From contig PMKP01000190.1 of NCBI GenBank assembly GCA_003157775.1, forward strand, positions 1 through 44,954: a stretch of DNA of 44,954 nt, written 5' to 3'. Below are positions 17,142-26,314 of this stretch, piece by piece. Numbering within the stretch: the stretch's first letter is position 1; each line of letters starts with the position of its first letter. Origin of the DNA: Myxococcales bacterium. GTDB lineage: Bacteria; Myxococcota_A; Polyangia; Fen-1088. The position numbers and the translations under genes are program-made. The notes under the pieces were generated by a model. It made no database searches and was not told where the DNA came from. It saw nothing but the letters and a program-made list of their open reading frames with translations.

Positions 17142-18158
17142 CTAGTCCAGCCCCACCTCAGCGAGGTCTTCTTCGGACATGCCGAAGAAGTGGCCGGTCT
17201 CGTGCAGGAGGGTGATGCGGATCTGTTCGCCCAATTCCTCGGCGCCGTGCACCGCACGCTCCAAATTCTTGCGGAACAGGAGAATCTGGGTGAGCTGGGG
17301 CTGGTCCCCCATCGCGGATGCGTCTGGGTAGGACGAGCCCGCAAACATGCCGAGCAGCCGCGGGTCCAGCCCCTTGTCGACCTCGTCGCGCGCGGGAAGG
17401 TCGACAATCAAGATGGGCACATTTGCGATCAGCTTACGCACGCGTTGTGGCAGCTCCCGCAGGGTTGCCTCGGCCACCTCAGCCATCTGTGCTTCCGATA
17501 AGAGAGGCGCCGCCAGCGGCCTCTCGGCGTCAAGCGCGAGAGTGCGCAGCCAGGCCCGGCGCTTCCCCGCCTCGTCGTTGCGGGCCTCGGCGCAAAGACC
17601 CAAGCCGTGCCAGGCGTCGGCATCGCGGCCGTCAGCGTCCACCACGGCCTGAAAACGCTGCGTGGCCTCGTCCAAATCGCCGACCTCAAGAAACAGATGA
17701 GCGAAATCCAGCGCGAGTCCGGGTGGCAGAGCCGCCCCTGCCTGCAGCGGCGGCAACTCCGCTAGGGTCTTGCGGGCCGCGGTAGGCTTGCCCAGATCGA
17801 TTTCGAGACCCGCCTTGAGCGCCACGGCTTCGAGAAACTCGTCTTCTTCCTCTGCGCGGTCGAGCGCCGCAGTCGCGTGTTGCAGGGCCTCACTCAGCTG
17901 TTCTGGATCCTCAGCCAGGATTTCGGCGGTCCAGATCTCGGGGGTGGCCCAATTGAGGTCGGCCTGGGCCGCCTGCTCGAGCAGCTTGAGCGCGTCCTTC
18001 ATCGCGCCCACCTGACGACAGCAGGCGGCTTGCAGGAGAATCACATCGGGATGGCCCGGGTCATCGCCGTAGAGCCTCTCCGCCAGCCGCCGGGCACCGG
18101 GCTCGTCGCCCGCTTCCAGCAGATCCCAGGCGCGCTCCAGCTCGTCGTCGAAGCTCAT
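17142..18158 (-). CDS. TPR protein with C-terminal zincin-like metallopeptidase domain
   Basis: A 338-residue fusion. The N-terminal two thirds are TPR-like helices (DELERAWDLLEAGDEPGARR, ALKLLEQAAQADLNWATPEI). The C-terminal part contains ITLLHETGHFFGMSEEDLAE near residues 317-335, an HExxH zinc site followed by the family's FGxSEEDL form of the zincin-like PF06262 type. The partner or substrate is unknown. The start ATG 18158 overlaps the TGA of the KamA-type gene (ATGA), so both are likely cotranscribed and coupled. An upstream in-frame start at 18449 would lie deep inside that gene and is rejected. Confidence 0.8.
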   Translation of the reverse strand: MSFDDELERAWDLLEAGDEPGARRLAERLYGDDPGHPDVILLQAACCRQVGAMKDALKLLEQAAQADLNWATPEIWTAEILAEDPEQLSEALQHATAALDRAEEEDEFLEAVALKAGLEIDLGKPTAARKTLAELPPLQAGAALPPGLALDFAHLFLEVGDLDEATQRFQAVVDADGRDADAWHGLGLCAEARNDEAGKRRAWLRTLALDAERPLAAPLLSEAQMAEVAEATLRELPQRVRKLIANVPILIVDLPARDEVDKGLDPRLLGMFAGSSYPDASAMGDQPQLTQILLFRKNLERAVHGAEELGEQIRITLLHETGHFFGMSEEDLAEVGLD

Positions 18159-19546
18159 CGCCGACTTCGCGCCCCTTCTAGTGCCTCCGCGATCATACGC
18201 TCGTGCTGCGACGGATCGGCCCAACGGGCTTGACCCGTCGGCGGCAGCAGGTGGATGGGATCGAAGTAGCAAAAATACTGTCCCGGATGCACTACCGGCG
18301 AGCGGTAGACCGAGATTCCGGTCTCGCGGTCGTAGTGTTCCCAGGAATGCACATCGCGCTTGCCGCCGCCCGGTGTGTCCACCACGGTGACCGGCGTGTT
18401 GTAGCCAGCGGTCAACCCGCGGAGCTGCTTTTCGAGCTGCGCTCCGCATTCCACGGTCGTGCGCAGATCTTCGACCCCCTTCACCATGTCGTGCACGTAG
18501 ATGTAGTAGGGGTGAACGTTGATGAAGCTGAGGCGTCTGACCAGGACGCCCATGACCGTGGGAGAGTCGTTGACCCCCCGAATGAGCACGGTCTGGTTGC
18601 GAACCGTGATGCCGCGATCAAAAAGCTTGCCGGTCGCGGCTTGGGTGATGGCGGTGATCTCGTCGGGATGATTGAAGTGGGTGTGAACCACCACCTCTTT
18701 GTGAAGTCGGCGCCCCCGCTCTGCAATGCCTGTCAGCGCGTCGACCCACGCGCTATCGCTGAGGAGTTTTTGCGGCATGACCGCCGGCATCTTGGTGGCC
18801 CAGCGGATACGCCGCACATGCGGTATAGCCAAGAAGGCCTCGCCCATGTAGGTCACCTGCTCGTCGCGCAGTTGCGATACGTCACCACCTGAAATGAGGA
18901 TGTCTTCCACTTCCGGCCGTGAGGCCACGTACTCGAAGGCCAGACGCCAGCGCTCGACATCGACACCGAACTGCAGCTTGGTGACCTCCTCGGTATCCAG
19001 CCCGACCGCGTAGCTGCGGGTGCAGAAGCGACAGTACACCGGGCAGGTGTCGAGCGGCAGGAAGAGAACCTTGTCGGGATAGCGGTGCGACAGCCCTGGC
19101 ACGGGCATGTCTTGCCGCTCGTGCAAGGGGTCGAGATCCACCTTGGGATGGTCGGGCAGACGGCGCGAGGCCAGCGGGATGAATTGAATACGCAGAGGGT
19201 CTTCGTAGGGCCGCGACCAGTCGATGAGCGAGAGCAGATAGGGTGAGACCCGCACCGGCATGGGCGCGTGGCGAAAGCCTTGTTCCGCGTCCCGCACAAA
19301 ATCGGCGTCGACCAGGCCCTGCAATGCAGCCAAGAGGCGCGGGACATTGGTTATGGAATTCTTCGCCTGCCAGCGGTGGTCGAGGAAATCGGATTCCGGC
19401 ACCTGGGCGTAGGCCCGCAAACGCTGCCAGAAAGGACCGTCGCGCAGTTGCCGGTGGGCCAGGGTCGTCGGATCCGCGGGCGGCTTGAGTGCAGGTGGTA
19501 AGACCGGCGCGTGGGCCTTGGGCGGGGCCAAGACTTGGGTGGACAT
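18155..19546 (-). CDS. KamA-family radical SAM protein (aminomutase-like)
   Basis: This resembles lysine 2,3-aminomutases, which move an amino group using S-adenosylmethionine, a 4Fe-4S cluster and PLP. The 463-residue protein has the radical SAM motif CPVYCRFC (Cys168, Cys172, Cys175), LISGGD around residue 217, NVHPYYIYVHD at 343-353 with the family's substrate Asp, and VVDTPGGGKRDVHSW at 388-402. Lys396 is the likely PLP lysine, though the segment has one Gly fewer than canonical LAM (GGGGK). The substrate is not predictable and EpmB-like or other amine roles are possible. ATG 19546 is used; the extension to 19729 would run into htrA. Confidence 0.85.
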   Translation of the reverse strand: MSTQVLAPPKAHAPVLPPALKPPADPTTLAHRQLRDGPFWQRLRAYAQVPESDFLDHRWQAKNSITNVPRLLAALQGLVDADFVRDAEQGFRHAPMPVRVSPYLLSLIDWSRPYEDPLRIQFIPLASRRLPDHPKVDLDPLHERQDMPVPGLSHRYPDKVLFLPLDTCPVYCRFCTRSYAVGLDTEEVTKLQFGVDVERWRLAFEYVASRPEVEDILISGGDVSQLRDEQVTYMGEAFLAIPHVRRIRWATKMPAVMPQKLLSDSAWVDALTGIAERGRRLHKEVVVHTHFNHPDEITAITQAATGKLFDRGITVRNQTVLIRGVNDSPTVMGVLVRRLSFINVHPYYIYVHDMVKGVEDLRTTVECGAQLEKQLRGLTAGYNTPVTVVDTPGGGKRDVHSWEHYDRETGISVYRSPVVHPGQYFCYFDPIHLLPPTGQARWADPSQHERMIAEALEGARSRR

Positions 19547-19592
19547 GTCCTGCAGCTTGTCTAGCCCAAACCAAGCTCCTCGGCCAGCCTTG

Positions 19593-20939
19593 CTACCCCA
19601 ACGTGAGGACAAGCTGATACCCATCACGCACGATGACCAACCTACCCCCGCCGCCGCGAGCAAGTTTCTGTTCCAGCTGCTTGAGCAGCGCAGTCGTGGC
19701 CGCCTTGCCCTGGGTGCCCAGCACCACATGGGTGATGACGTCGCCCGGTTGCAGGCTGCCGCTTGCTGGGCTGCGCCGGTCGACCGACACGACCTTTAGG
19801 CCGCCAGCCCCGATCTCTTGCGCCTCAGAGGGACTCAAGGGGACCACCTGCATGCCCAGTACTTGGGTGCCGCGCAAGTCAGCGTTCTCCGTCAGACGCA
19901 CCTGCGCCGTCGCACGACGGCCGCCGCGCAGGTAGGCCACGGCCACGGTCTCGCCCGGGGCTCGCGACTGCACGATTCTCTGGAGGCCGGCACTGGTCTC
20001 GGCCCGGCGGCCCGCGACCTCGACGATCACGTCATTGGGACGCAGGCCTGCAGCCTCGGCCGGCGATCCCGGTTGCACGACATTGACCAGGGCGCCAGAC
20101 TCGAACGGGACGCCGATGCGCTTCGCCTTTTCGGGCGTGAGGTTCTCGGTGCCGACCCCCAGGTAACCACGCGCCACGCTGCCGCCGCGCTGAATCTGGT
20201 CCGCTATCTGACGCGCCAGATTGATGGGAATGGCAAAACCAACGTTCATGGCCAGGGCGGGATTCAGGATGGCGGAGTTGATGCCGATGACCTCACCGCG
20301 AAAGTTGAAAAGCGGTCCGCCCGAATTGCCCTGATTGATGGCCGCGTCGGTCTGGATGAAGTCTTCATACTGCGTGATTCGGCCGCCCAGCATGCGGTTC
20401 TTGGCCGACACGATGCCCATGGTCACCGTCTGTCCCATCCCCAACGGGTTGCCTATGGCCAGCACATAATCGCCCACGCGAACCTGCTCCGAGTTGCCTA
20501 GCGTGGCTGGCCTCATGTCACCCGGTGGACGGTTGAGCTTGACCACCGCCACATCTGTGGCCGGATCGCTGCCCACCACGCGCGCCTCGAAGCGCCGCTC
20601 GTCGGCAAGCTGCACCCACACCTCGTCGGCTCCCGCCACCACGTGGTTGTTGGTCAGGATGATGCCGGCCTTGTTGACGATGAAGCCAGAGCCCAAACCG
20701 AGTTGGGTCTCCCGCCGGCTGGGGGCATCACCCAGGCCGAAGCGTTCGCGGAAGTACTGCGTGAAGGGATCTTCACTCATGACCCGGGGAATGACCTTCA
20801 TGCTCTGGATGGTCACCACCGAAGCCTTCACACGCTCGACCAGGGGGGCCACCGAGGCGCCCATGTCAGTCGGCGCAGGAATGGACTGGGCTGATGTCAG
20901 AACGATTGCGACAGCGAATGAAAGAGACGTCAGTGTCAT
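19593..20939 (-). CDS. Periplasmic HtrA/DegP-type serine protease
   Basis: A 448-residue HtrA-family protease for envelope quality control. The signal peptide is MTLTSLSFAVAIVLTSAQSI. The catalytic triad is visible as His99 (TNNHVVAGAD), Asp129 (DPATDVAVVKL) and Ser206 (QGNSGGPLFNF). Two PDZ domains follow, one starting near residue 265 (GYLGVGTENLTPEKAKRIGV) and a second near 375 (VVPLSPSEAQEIGAGGLKVV). The start at 20939 is favoured by the signal peptide; an in-frame start at 21068 would add a low-complexity leader. It is upstream of the KamA-type gene on the same strand with 46 bases between. Confidence 0.92.
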   Translation of the reverse strand: MTLTSLSFAVAIVLTSAQSIPAPTDMGASVAPLVERVKASVVTIQSMKVIPRVMSEDPFTQYFRERFGLGDAPSRRETQLGLGSGFIVNKAGIILTNNHVVAGADEVWVQLADERRFEARVVGSDPATDVAVVKLNRPPGDMRPATLGNSEQVRVGDYVLAIGNPLGMGQTVTMGIVSAKNRMLGGRITQYEDFIQTDAAINQGNSGGPLFNFRGEVIGINSAILNPALAMNVGFAIPINLARQIADQIQRGGSVARGYLGVGTENLTPEKAKRIGVPFESGALVNVVQPGSPAEAAGLRPNDVIVEVAGRRAETSAGLQRIVQSRAPGETVAVAYLRGGRRATAQVRLTENADLRGTQVLGMQVVPLSPSEAQEIGAGGLKVVSVDRRSPASGSLQPGDVITHVVLGTQGKAATTALLKQLEQKLARGGGGRLVIVRDGYQLVLTLG

Positions 20940-21399: not shown

Positions 21400-22596
21400 G
21401 TGGCATCGCCGCCTGTTCTCCATTCTTCGCTCGCTTCCCCGCTTGCCGCCGGACCCGGCGAAGCCTTGGCCTACATCGAAGACCTGGACGATCTGACATC
21501 TGGAAATGCCGTGCGCCTTCTGCGCAACGGGCAGGAGGCGTTTCCTGCCTGGCTGGACGCCATCGACGCGGCCTCAACCCGGGTGTCGATGGAGATGTAC
21601 ATCTTCGACGATGACCGGATCGGTCGGCGCGTCGCAGACGCCTTGTGTTGCGCAGCCCGGCGTGGGGTTTCGGTGCGCCTGCTCTACGACTTCATCGGGT
21701 GCCGTCACGCCTCGCCCGAGTTTTTCGCCAACATGCGACGGGCAGGCGTCCACACCGTGACCTACCACCCCTATCGACTCTGGCGCCCGCGCTTCTGGAC
21801 CCTCATCCGGCGCAACCACCGCAAGACCCTGGTCTGTGACGGCCAGGTGGCTTTCGTGGGCGGGATCAACGTCGCCGATGCGTGGCTGCCCGCCGCCGAC
21901 AGTGGAGGCGGCTGGCATGACGTCGCCGTCGAGGTCAGGGGCCCAGCGGTCCAAGTGATCGAGCGGACCTTTCTGCGCACGTGGAACTGGCGGGCCAAGC
22001 GACGCTTCCGCTTCAAGCGCAGCCGTGTGCACCGCCCCGCACCCGCCGGTGACGTTGCCCTGGCTGTGGTCGCCAACCGCGAGCTGGTCGACCGCTTCTC
22101 CATCCGGCGGGCCGCCTTGTACGCCATCCGGGCCAGCCGCGAACGCGCCTACCTGGTCAGCCCCTACTTCATGCCCGACATCGGCTTCATCAGCGGGCTG
22201 GCGCGCGCCGTGGCCCGTGGCGTGGACGTGCGCGTGCTGGTACCGGTCTCCAGCGACAGCCTGCTGGCCGATCTGGCTTCACGAGCCAGCTTTGCGCGCC
22301 TGCTCAAGGCCGGCATCCGGCTCTTCCAACACAACCCAGCGGCTCACAGCAAGGCCCTCTTGGTGGACCACGAGTTCGTATCCATCGGCAGCTACAACTT
22401 CGACCACCGGTCCTTGGTCTACAACCTGGAATTGGTCGTCAATGCGCTCGATCGCAAATGCAACGAAGCGCTGGCAGCCACGTTGCAAGAGGACATGGCA
22501 GCCGGAACCGAAATCCGCTGGGAAGACTTCCGCCGGCGCCACTTGCTTGAGCGCATCCTGGAACGACTGGCGTATGGCCTGCGCCACTGGCTCTAG
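21400..22596 (+). CDS. Phospholipase D-type cardiolipin synthase-like protein
   Basis: A cytosol-facing or peripheral member of the PLD superfamily, about 398 residues. It carries two HKD motifs: HRKTLVCD with GGINVAD downstream in the first half and HSKALLVD followed by [11 protein letters not shown] in the second. This doublet is typical of cardiolipin synthases of the short ClsB/ClsC kind, which join phospholipids. No N-terminal membrane pair is visible. No ATG lies between 21300 and the domain, so GTG 21400 is chosen without a good ribosome site; other GTG/TTG starts are possible. The stop overlaps the stop of xth on the other strand. Confidence 0.85.
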
Positions 22597-23363
22597 TCAG
22601 CAAAATCGGCGACTACAGGCGCATGATCCGACGGCGTCTGTCCCTTGCGGGCATCGCGATCGATGACTACCGACCGACAGCGCGCCGCCATAGCTTGCGT
22701 GCACAGGATGTGGTCGATGCGCAGACCTCGGTTCTTGGGGAAGCTGAGCTGGCGGTAGTCCCACCAAGTGTACTGACCCGGCTCAGGATGAAGCTGGCGA
22801 AACACGTCCACCAGGCCCCAGCGCCGTACCTCGGCCAGGGCGGCCCGTTCATCGGGATGGCACATCACCTGGTCGCGCCAGGCTTCCGGGTCGTGGACGT
22901 CCCGATCCTCGGGTGCGACATTGATATCGCCACAAAAAACCAGCGGTCTTTCGGCATCGGCGTGCGCCGTCAGCCAGGCTCGCCAGCGCTCTAGCCACTT
23001 CAACTTGTACTTGAACTTTTCGGTGCCAACTGCCTGTCCGTTGGGCACGTAGAGACTCCCCACCCGAACCTGGCCCACGCGAGCCACAAGAAAGCGAGCC
23101 TGTGCATCCTCGGCCCCATCGCCGAATCCGCGCACGATGTCGTCGAGCGGCTGGCGCGCCAGTACGGCCACGCCGTTGTAGGTCTTCTGGCCGTACGCCG
23201 CCACGCGATATCCGAGCGACTCCAGTTCCAATGCAGGAAAGGCACTATCCTCGACCTTGGTTTCCTGCAGGCAAATCACGTCGGGCGCCTGCGCAGCCAG
23301 CCACGCGCGCAACCGTGCCATGCGCGCGCGAATGGAGTTGACGTTCCATGTCGCGATCTTCAT
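22593..23363 (-). CDS. xth: Exodeoxyribonuclease III (AP endonuclease)
   Basis: Exonuclease III acts on abasic sites and 3' ends in base excision repair. The 256-residue protein begins MKIATWNVNSIRARMARLRA and has the catalytic CLQETKVED, VFCGDINVAPEDRDVHDPEA, LRIDHILCT and the closing SDHAPVVADF motif, all carrying metal or catalytic residues. ATG 23363 is chosen because it starts the conserved beta-strand; the frame is open upstream to 23477. It is divergent from the RpiB-Pgi gene, 33 bases between starts, and convergent with the PLD-type gene. Confidence 0.95.
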   Translation of the reverse strand: MKIATWNVNSIRARMARLRAWLAAQAPDVICLQETKVEDSAFPALELESLGYRVAAYGQKTYNGVAVLARQPLDDIVRGFGDGAEDAQARFLVARVGQVRVGSLYVPNGQAVGTEKFKYKLKWLERWRAWLTAHADAERPLVFCGDINVAPEDRDVHDPEAWRDQVMCHPDERAALAEVRRWGLVDVFRQLHPEPGQYTWWDYRQLSFPKNRGLRIDHILCTQAMAARCRSVVIDRDARKGQTPSDHAPVVADFAD

Positions 23364-23396: not shown

Positions 23397-25475
23397 GTGA
23401 AGATCTACACAGGCTGTGATCATGCAGGGTTCGCCCTGCGCAACAAGTTGGTCGATCGGATGCGCAACCAGGGCCACGAGGTGGTGGACTTCGGCACCAA
23501 CTCGGAAGCCGCGTGCGACTACCCCGAGTATGCCGCCCTGGTAGCCAGTGCCGTGCGCAGCGATGTGGGCTCAGTGGGGGTGCTGGTGTGTGCCACCGGG
23601 CATGGCACAGCCATTGCAGCGGGAAAGGTGCGCGGCATCCGGGCTTTTGCTCCCAGCAGCGTCGAGGCCGCGCGCCTCTCGCGCTTTGACAACAACACCA
23701 ATGTCCTCTGCCTGGGCGGTCGCATCCTGGCGGAAAGCGATGTCTTCGAGATCGTCGACACCTGGCTGTCCACCGGCTTTGCCGGCGGCCGCCACGGTCG
23801 CCGCATCGCCAAGATTGCGGCGATGGAGACCGCAGCGGCCCTCAACTTTCTGGTCGAGAGCCAGTACCTGCGTCTGGCCGCCAAGGGTATCCCGGCCAGC
23901 ATCTGGGCCAAAGACGCCGCCGCTTTTGCACCCGCTGGTGGCGCCTGTGAAGGCATCGGCGACAACCTCGGCTGGCTAAACTCCCCCAACGACATGGAAG
24001 GTGAACTGACCAGTATCGCAGCCTTCGCGGACCAGGTGCGCAAGGCTGGGTTCCGGCGTGCCGTGCTGCTGGGCATAGGGGGCAGCGCGCTTCCGGCCGA
24101 GGTCTTGGCGCGAGTGTTTGGGCCGGCCGCGGGGTGGCTCAACGTGTTTGTGCTCGACTGCACCGATCCAGCGGCAGTGGCGGCGGTTGAGACCTCGATT
24201 GACCTCGAGCGCACCCTATTCGTGGTCGCTTCCAAGTCCGGCAACACCCCCGAGGTGTGCGCCTTTGAGCGATATTTCTGGGCCAAGGTCCTGCACCGCT
24301 GGGCTGGCGATGCGAGCCGGGCCGGGCAGCACTTCGCGGCCATCACCGATGCCGGGACCGATCTCGACCAGCGGGCCTTGGCCAACCACTACCGTCGCGT
24401 GTTCAACAACCCGCCCGACATCAGCAGCCGCTTTTCCGCGCTCGCCAGCTTTGGTCTGGTCCCGGCGGCTCTCATGGGCACGGACATCAGCCGCCTGGTG
24501 GCACGCGCCAAGGCCATGGCTGCCGCCTGCCGGGAAGCCAATCCGACGCAGAACCCTGGTGTGACCCTGGGGACTCTCATGGGGGCTCTGGCTGCAGTCG
24601 GCCGGGACAAGCTGACCTTGTTTCTGTCGCCCGAACTGGCGCCCTTAGGTCCGTGGATCGAGCAGCTCGTCGCGGGTGCGACCGGCAAGCAAGGACGCGG
24701 CATCGTTCCGGTGGAGGGCGAGCCACCAGGCGCGCCCTCCGGCTACCGTCCCGATCGCCTATTTGTCGTGGTGAGACTGCGTGGCGGAGCCCCGCCTGCG
24801 CCAGCCGAACAGCTAGAAGCCATCACCACCGCCGGGCATCCCGTCTATGAGATCGAGCTGGGCGACAAGTACGATCTCGGCGCCGAATTCTTTCGCTGGG
24901 AGTTTGCCACTGCTGTGGCGGCCAGCCTGCTGGAGGTCAATCCCTTTGACGAACCGGAGGCGGTCGAGGCCAGGCAAGCCACGACCCGCCTGCTCGACGG
25001 CTACCGACAGACTGGCCAGCTTCCCAACCCGCCGGGCGTGGTGGCTCCCACCGACGCAGCTATCGTGAAGCATCTGGCAGCGGCCAAGCCCGGCGACTAT
25101 CTCGCGATCAACGCCTTTTTCCAGCCCACGCCCGAGCGTGATCGCTTATTGGGCTCCATCCGGACGCTTTGCCGCGACCGGCTTCGCCTGGCAACCACCG
25201 TGGGCTATGGGCCGCGCTGTCTGCACGTGGCCGGGCAACTCCACAAGGGCGGCGCGGGTACCGGCATCTTCCTGCAACTGGGCGCCTCGGTCGTGACCGA
25301 CTTGCCGGTTCCCGACGAGCCATTTACCTTCGGCGTCCTGCGCGACGCCCAGGGGCTGGGCGATCTGGAATCTCTGCGAGCGCGCGGTCGCCGTGTCCTG
25401 CGGGTTGACTGCGGCCCTGATCCCGACGCCGGGCTTGCCACGCTGTTGGACACCCTCGGCGCTCTCGGCCAGTAG
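23397..25475 (+). CDS. RpiB-Pgi fusion: ribose-5-phosphate isomerase B domain joined to a glucose-6-phosphate isomerase-like domain
   Basis: A 692-residue two-domain protein. Residues 1-145 are RpiB-like: CDHAGFALR with Asp8 and His9, VCATGHGTAIAAGKVRGIRA with the catalytic Cys65, and GGRHGRRI phosphate arginines at 132 and 136. The E. coli ring-opening His99 position is Asp98 here (SRFDNNTNV). Residues 150-692 are a sugar isomerase of the Tal-Pgi type: GIGGSALPAE at 227, SKSGNTPEV at 279 and GQLHKGGAGTGIF near 615. The fusion would link pentose- and hexose-phosphate isomerisation. GTG 23397 is the start. Known Tal-Pgi fusions have transaldolase in front, so this arrangement is unusual. Confidence 0.9.
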   Translation: MKIYTGCDHAGFALRNKLVDRMRNQGHEVVDFGTNSEAACDYPEYAALVASAVRSDVGSVGVLVCATGHGTAIAAGKVRGIRAFAPSSVEAARLSRFDNNTNVLCLGGRILAESDVFEIVDTWLSTGFAGGRHGRRIAKIAAMETAAALNFLVESQYLRLAAKGIPASIWAKDAAAFAPAGGACEGIGDNLGWLNSPNDMEGELTSIAAFADQVRKAGFRRAVLLGIGGSALPAEVLARVFGPAAGWLNVFVLDCTDPAAVAAVETSIDLERTLFVVASKSGNTPEVCAFERYFWAKVLHRWAGDASRAGQHFAAITDAGTDLDQRALANHYRRVFNNPPDISSRFSALASFGLVPAALMGTDISRLVARAKAMAAACREANPTQNPGVTLGTLMGALAAVGRDKLTLFLSPELAPLGPWIEQLVAGATGKQGRGIVPVEGEPPGAPSGYRPDRLFVVVRLRGGAPPAPAEQLEAITTAGHPVYEIELGDKYDLGAEFFRWEFATAVAASLLEVNPFDEPEAVEARQATTRLLDGYRQTGQLPNPPGVVAPTDAAIVKHLAAAKPGDYLAINAFFQPTPERDRLLGSIRTLCRDRLRLATTVGYGPRCLHVAGQLHKGGAGTGIFLQLGASVVTDLPVPDEPFTFGVLRDAQGLGDLESLRARGRRVLRVDCGPDPDAGLATLLDTLGALGQ

Positions 25476-25486
25476 CGCTGTCCCCA

Positions 25487-26314
25487 ATGGTCCCCATCAT
25501 AGACTCGCACTGCCATCTGGATTTCGACGACTTTGCCCAAGACTTGCCTGCGGTGCTAGAGCGGGCTCGCCAGGCCGGCCTGGTGGCCATGATCTGCATC
25601 GGTTCAGGCTCGGACCTGCCGACGGCCGAGCGAGCCGCCAACCTGGCCGCCCGCGAGCCGGACATCTTCGCGGCCATCGGGATTCATCCCCACGACGCGG
25701 CCAAGATAGAGGATGACTGGTGGCCGGCGCTGGACAAGCTGGCTCGAAGCCCCCGCGTGGTAGGCGTCGGCGAAACTGGGCTCGACTACTTCTACGACCA
25801 CTCGCCACGTGACAAGCAGGCCGAGGTCTTCAGGCGCTTCCTGGCACTCAGTCGCTCAACTCGCCGGCCCTTCATCTGTCACGTGCGCGACGCCCACGAG
25901 GATGCGCTCGCCATCCTGCACGCGGAGTCGCTCGGCGAAACCGGTGGCGTCGTGCATTGCTTCTCGGGCAACTTGGACCATGCGCGCGGCTACCTTGATC
26001 TCGGCCTGGACCTCTCCTTCTCGGGAATCCTGACCTTCAAGAACGCGGACGAGGTCCGCCGCGTGGCCGCCTTTGCGCCCTTGCAGTCGATCCTGGTGGA
26101 GACCGACGCGCCCTATCTGGCGCCGATGCCCCATCGCGGAAAGCGCAACGAACCCGCCTTCGTGGTGAAGACCTTGGAGGCGCTCGCCCTGGTTCGCGGA
26201 ATTCCATTTTCGCGCGCGGCCGAGGCCACCACAGAAAATGCGCGAAGGCGATTCGCGCTGACGGACGTCGCGGTTTCGGCGGGCGGGACCATCCTGGCGC
26301 CGCCTGCCGCCTGA
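25487..26314 (+). CDS. TatD-family metal-dependent DNase
   Basis: A 275-residue TatD-type hydrolase, a TIM-barrel metalloenzyme with 3'-exonuclease or DNA-repair roles. Metal ligands are visible as DSHCHLD near residue 6, GVGETGLDYFYDH near 90, PFICHVRDA near 125, GVVHCFSGNLDHA and VETDAPYLAPMPHRGKRNEP, the family's closing Asp motif. It begins 11 bases after the RpiB-Pgi stop and its TGA overlaps the next ATG (TGATG), so this gene and the next are probably coupled. Whether the pairing with a PilZ protein has meaning is unknown. Confidence 0.92.
   Translation: MVPIIDSHCHLDFDDFAQDLPAVLERARQAGLVAMICIGSGSDLPTAERAANLAAREPDIFAAIGIHPHDAAKIEDDWWPALDKLARSPRVVGVGETGLDYFYDHSPRDKQAEVFRRFLALSRSTRRPFICHVRDAHEDALAILHAESLGETGGVVHCFSGNLDHARGYLDLGLDLSFSGILTFKNADEVRRVAAFAPLQSILVETDAPYLAPMPHRGKRNEPAFVVKTLEALALVRGIPFSRAAEATTENARRRFALTDVAVSAGGTILAPPAA

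Follow-up and report, generated by a model that had tools for sequence, protein, structure and literature searches.

The stretch of DNA analysed here (the window) comprises the 44,954 nucleotides of contig PMKP01000190.1, from the metagenome-assembled genome of a Myxococcales bacterium. Its positions 23397..25475 on the forward strand hold a single open reading frame of 692 amino acids, with a GTG start at 23397 and a stop at 25475, that joins an RpiB domain to a glucose-6-phosphate isomerase (Pgi) domain of the kind found in bifunctional transaldolase/Pgi (Tal-Pgi) proteins. The RpiB domain (residues 1-146; 23397..23834) is complete: the Pfam family LacAB_rpiB (PF02502) matches residues 3-140 (E 9e-45) with 152.5 bits against a cut-off of 24.7, and the NCBIfam RpiB models, which match residues 1-146, likewise pass their cut-offs (TIGR01120 with 142.9 against 138.65, PRK05571 with 157.8 against 135, and TIGR00689). 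The Pgi domain (residues 147-687; 23835..25457) is matched by Pfam PGI at 221-394 (E 1e-10) and by the Tal-Pgi model PRK09533 at residues 145-687 (E 3e-167). This latter match covers the Pgi part of the model alone (positions 387-944 of 949), where the protein is 43-56% identical to Tal-Pgi members; RpiB stands in the place of the transaldolase, and the whole-protein score against the Tal-Pgi family NF007080 is 558 bits, below the cut-off of 712. A Foldseek search of the solved structures retrieved Pgi enzymes (2q8n, E 2e-16; 1zzg, TMt 0.76), and the AlphaFold2 model of the fusion protein is confident throughout (mean pLDDT 93.8, pTM 0.88), with the two domains linked by a single continuous predicted helix at residues 131-163 (23787..23885).

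Upstream, and transcribed divergently, lies a gene for an xthA-type exonuclease (22593..23363, reverse strand; PF03372), whose predicted start is the methionine of MKIATWNVNS, 33 bases from the start of the fusion. Downstream, at a distance of 11 bases, follows a gene for a TatD DNase (25487..26314, forward strand; PF01026). Elsewhere in the window, positions 18155-19729 of the reverse strand encode a protein containing CPVYCRFCTRSYAVG that has no Pfam match at 1e-5 and that resembles a radical-SAM lysine aminomutase.

The source of the window is a metagenome assembly of 485 contigs with 87% completeness, a setting in which an assembly, binning or frameshift error could in principle have joined two genes, and the earlier note had named such an error between the domains as fatal to its claim. 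An uninterrupted reading of 689-692 residues from the same GTG start is present in five further species of the window's genus, g1 (G379, G380, G381, G382 and G384), and in G269, the representative of the sister genus g2. In the seventh g1 species, G383, the frame is broken solely by an 'nn' scaffold gap (G383:C223), and a real pseudogene there was rejected. The order degP, cls (cardiolipin synthase-like), xthA, fusion is common to g1, g2 and g239, the third genus to carry the fusion; the xthA-type gene is a conserved neighbour in g237 as well, and tatD and the gene after it follow the fusion in g1 and g2. With a continuous frame in six independently assembled g1 genomes and in G269, and with gene order conserved on both sides, an artefact is so improbable that it can be set aside.

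The fusion is real, and it is also rare. The G269 protein is 54% identical to that of the window, and in the g239 fusions (G387, G391 and G393) identity is 67-70% for the RpiB half and about 40% for the Pgi half, which ends about 170 residues early. No clean one-frame RpiB-Pgi was seen outside this one Myxococcota family in a survey of 379 genomes of the phylum, among the 80 best loci retained when 84,980 genomes were scanned for the pattern, or in 400 genomes surveyed from the phylum to which a Chloroflexota locus belongs. Among the loci listed outside the family a single one (L062, G431) spans both halves, and it has a TAG between them. A fusion common elsewhere was thus rejected by the phylum surveys and the pattern scan, and the original judgement that the pairing is unusual holds within these surveys. 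Literature searches, which extended to sources other than subscription papers, found no published report of an RpiB-Pgi fusion.

The genomic surroundings of related genes suggest where the fusion came from. Two other genera of the same family, g3 and g238, carry an rpiB gene followed by a tal-pgi gene, rpiB adjoining tal-pgi is frequent among Chloroflexota loci, and at three Chloroflexota loci a pgi lacking the transaldolase part directly follows rpiB in a separate frame. The pairs of rpiB and tal-pgi resemble the fusion in gene identity, order and neighbouring place, but their genes are separate, the transaldolase is present and the catalytic residues are kept. An rpiB beside tal-pgi is the likely source, and we infer that the locus's own rpiB fused with the Pgi portion of the adjacent tal-pgi when the transaldolase segment between them was lost. 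At the family locus the RpiB parts fall into a single clade, within which g1 and g239 group together (support 100/99); a grouping of the Pgi parts of g1 with that of G269 is not rejected (p-AU 0.448), and in trees of the neighbouring genes G269 groups with g3 with moderate support. No gap separates the g1, g2 and g239 fusions at the junction, and this equal junction length would favour a single origin over two. At the related locus in g3, zwf (encoding G6PD) follows tal-pgi in L238, L242 and L244, as it does directly in G365, and rpiB precedes in L238 and L242, making a compact pentose phosphate cluster.

The RpiB half retains much of its active site. By alignment, Cys65, the catalytic base, and Thr67 are kept (23589..23597, which also contains residue 66; roles from PMC4783025 and PMC3212906), as are Asp8, His9, Arg132, His133 and Arg136. 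The E. coli ring-opening residue His99 is replaced by Asp98 (23688..23690), so that this replacement, and the retention of Cys65, Asp8, His9 and the phosphate arginines, are as initially reported. Two further differences from the usual RpiB had escaped attention, namely Ala66 for the glycine of the oxyanion loop, a residue that follows the catalytic cysteine and has been called universally conserved in RpiB (PMC3212906), and Gly76 (23622..23624) for the asparagine of the AANK motif. How unusual these residues are was gauged from 109 unique RpiB sequences, made up of the 10 g1 and g239 fusions, the G269 fusion and 98 others. At position 98 all 10 g1 and g239 fusions have Asp, whereas the G269 fusion and 92 of the 98 others have His; the same 10 fusions have Ala at position 66, where 90 of the 98 others have Gly, and Gly at position 76, where 97 of the 98 others and the G269 fusion have Asn. 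All three substitutions are thus fixed in the g1 and g239 fusions, while the RpiBs of g3 and g238 keep the ring-opening histidine. The earlier note had allowed that the fusion might prove common and aspartate the normal residue of the family; the fusion is not common, and aspartate, though the rule in g1 and g239, gives way to histidine in G269 and the neighbouring genera. Residue 69 (23601-23603) lies in the active-site loop, and g1 has His there, as does one of the 98 other RpiBs; by residue numbering it may correspond to the base Glu75 of Mycobacterium tuberculosis RpiB.

The six other RpiBs with Asp at position 98 belong to a second RpiB subtype, recognisable by EDDDMNV or EDDNMNV, apart from one Chloroflexota genome that was sampled twice. 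This second subtype is also encoded in the window's own genome, and since it too carries the aspartate, His gave way to Asp on more than one occasion. The loci at which this Asp-bearing subtype occurs are L002 (G000:C145, in the window genome), L155, L215, L216 and L132; in G391 the gene for the second subtype adjoins a transaldolase gene.

What the loss of the ring-opening histidine may entail can be judged from mutants of other enzymes. In E. coli RpiB the H99N exchange lowers kcat 26-fold and leaves Km unchanged, H102A in Trypanosoma cruzi RpiB lowers kcat 10-fold, and H102N inactivates Leishmania donovani RpiB (PMC4783025); in LacA, H96A causes a reduction of about 25-fold (PMC3755991). 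A natural precedent is the RpiB of Coccidioides immitis, which has Ser in place of the ring-opening His and for which a different, shorter substrate was proposed, the normal reaction being left to RpiA (PMC3212906). It resembles the window protein in the replaced histidine, in the presence of RpiA in the genus and in the altered substrate that was proposed, but differs in having Ser instead of Asp, in a phosphate site that is also changed and in being unfused. By analogy with these enzymes, the earlier suggestion of a slow or altered RpiB activity gains support; Asp at this position is rare elsewhere (6 of 98).

The larger change lies in the Pgi half and had likewise gone unremarked. Its phosphate-binding loop SKSGNTPE (24231..24254) is kept, and so is Arg345 (24429..24431) in the family motif GGRYS, here SSRFS. 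The catalytic glutamate of the AESTGK motif, corresponding to rabbit Glu357, is replaced by Gly427 (24675..24677), and the otherwise invariant lysine of the FDQPxVxxxK motif by Arg526 (24972..24974). Both the glutamate and the lysine are present in 33 of 33 Tal-Pgi relatives in the comparison alignment, the G269 fusion included. The six readable g1 species all have Gly427, within AGATGK or AGVTGK, and the lysine position is Arg or Gly across the genus; the SKSGNT loop and Arg345 are retained throughout g1 (with Pro for Thr in one species). The identity of the replaced glutamate is supported by hhalign, which aligns it with the catalytic glutamate of canonical Pgi (MESNGK), and by HMMER alignment to Pgi sequences from the PDB; for rabbit Pgi, the role of the residue is established (Jeffery et al. 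2001, as cited in PMC8354745). In g239 the position is occupied by Ala, Ala and Val, and both the phosphate loop and the arginine are lost. The three g239 fusions (L043, L044 and L045) combine an intact RpiB half with a Pgi half that lacks the phosphate loop, the arginine, the glutamate and about 170 C-terminal residues and that nevertheless stays open over about 370 residues.

Towards its C-terminus the Tal-Pgi type departs from canonical Pgi. With respect to the catalytic histidine (rabbit His388), the hhalign match stops before the Tal-Pgi C-terminus, where H610, Q614 and K617 are conserved, and the last ~150 residues show no alignment to canonical Pgi. Since the canonical histidine and lysine align poorly to this C-terminus, the Tal-Pgi mechanism may differ in detail. 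The TGQLHKGG motif (residues 600-620 of the window protein), with its H...GQ..K pattern, recalls the catalytic-histidine motif NGQHAFYQ, but it comes after, not before, the lysine motif.

Despite these changes the gene is under selection. Within g1 the RpiB part has a dN/dS ratio of 0.055 and the Pgi part one of 0.186, compared with 0.083-0.257 for neighbouring genes and 0.048-0.107 for the canonical Pgi of the genus. Every neighbouring gene tested is under weaker constraint than the RpiB half, which argues that the altered form of this half is strongly constrained. The Pgi parts of intact Tal-Pgi genes in g3 and g238 evolve similarly or faster (0.12-0.31), so the value of 0.186 is by itself no evidence of relaxation. 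No stop or frameshift occurs in the fusion in six g1 species at a dS of about 0.5. The Pgi part is less constrained than the RpiB part, yet it is not decaying freely.

For both steps further enzymes are available in the window genome, which also encodes RpiA, the second RpiB, separate transaldolases and a canonical Pgi, whose gene is split by a scaffold gap (an apparent frameshift in it proved to be an 'nn' gap, G000:C208, and a broken pgi was rejected). RpiA and a separate Pgi likewise occur in most g1 and g239 genomes. The situation differs in G269, whose 97% complete genome contains a single match to RpiB and a single match to Pgi, and each of these is the fusion; RpiA, another RpiB or Pgi, PF10432 and PF06560 were searched for in this genome and none was detected, while separate transaldolases and G6PD are present. 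The G269 fusion keeps His, Gly and Asn in the RpiB half and Glu in the Pgi half. The fusion without back-up therefore retains its catalytic residues whereas the window fusion, with back-ups, has lost several, which is one contrast and not a statistical test; a single clade shows both the residue loss and RpiA plus Pgi, so that this amounts to one evolutionary event and carries no statistical weight, and g3 and g238 have RpiA yet keep the ring-opening histidine. A direct link of pentose phosphate to hexose phosphate isomerisation, as first envisaged for the window protein, finds no support in the window genome, where the Pgi half has Gly427 and Arg526 and where RpiA is encoded alongside a separate canonical Pgi. 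To judge by the residues kept and the absence of other RpiA, RpiB or Pgi matches, such a link may exist in G269, where it is the more plausible.

Taken together, we lean towards the view that in the g1 fusion the RpiB still works, though retuned, and that the Pgi half attached to it is folded but no longer isomerises. The fusion with its conservation and synteny, the substitutions, the other enzymes of the genome and the selection measures are observed; the catalytic consequences that follow are those we infer from the residues and their conservation. The g1 and g239 fusions would have changed after fusing. With fold and phosphate loop kept and the proton-moving glutamate lost, the Pgi half probably does not isomerise glucose-6-phosphate and might serve as a scaffold or as a phospho-sugar-binding half. 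The RpiB half, with its catalytic and phosphate residues and strong purifying selection, probably still isomerises some sugar phosphate; Asp98, Ala66 and Gly76 would let it handle ring-form ribose-5-phosphate poorly, so its main substrate may be open-chain ribulose-5-phosphate or else a shorter sugar phosphate that is likewise open-chain, with RpiA and canonical Pgi taking the housekeeping reactions.

The same changes could mean that both halves are conserved pseudoenzymes that bind pentose and hexose phosphates for signalling or for allosteric control of partners such as RpiA and canonical Pgi. Catalytic residues are altered in both halves while binding residues (the SKSG loop, Arg345 and the RpiB arginines) are kept under purifying selection on both, in a genome with other enzymes for both steps; the retention of Cys65 and Thr67, the 4-10% of kcat left in ring-opening histidine mutants elsewhere (PMC4783025) and the lack of any visible partner or regulatory domain make this a minority view, if one to be taken seriously. 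That the window protein is still bifunctional, coupling the Rpi and Pgi reactions by means of atypical catalytic residues, would fit the confident fold predicted for both halves and a G269 version that keeps all residues and looks bifunctional, but a glycine is unable to serve as the proton-shuttling base, the glutamate is invariant in 33 relatives, and the genome holds a tightly constrained canonical Pgi, all of which renders continued bifunctionality improbable. Slightly less credible still is a redundant relic in decay, with the Pgi half going and the RpiB half to follow. The g239 Pgi half, stripped of the loop, the arginine, the glutamate and its last ~170 residues, looks like a step in that direction; in g1 the frame is intact across the six species at a dS of about 0.5, and an RpiB half tighter than any neighbour tested, with three substitutions fixed in 10 of 10 fusions, makes decay unlikely. 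A more speculative proposal, which we rate between the pseudoenzyme and the bifunctional readings and so as doubtful, is that a fusion that is one genus's only detected Rpi and Pgi was converted in the sister genera into a conserved pseudoenzyme or retuned enzyme, the Pgi half sensing hexose phosphate and controlling the RpiB half as a single-protein sensor between the pentose phosphate pathway and glycolysis.

Automatic annotation would label the window gene a working Rpi/Pgi, and the retuned RpiB with a non-isomerising Pgi half that we prefer is a warning against such transfer. If this reading is true, one family would hold a natural before-and-after pair: G269, with its catalytic residues kept and no detected back-up, and g1, with back-ups, both active sites rebuilt and the gene under selection. 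With such a pair it could be tested directly whether an Rpi-Pgi fusion yields a working double enzyme, and also how a metabolic enzyme turns non-catalytic or retuned.
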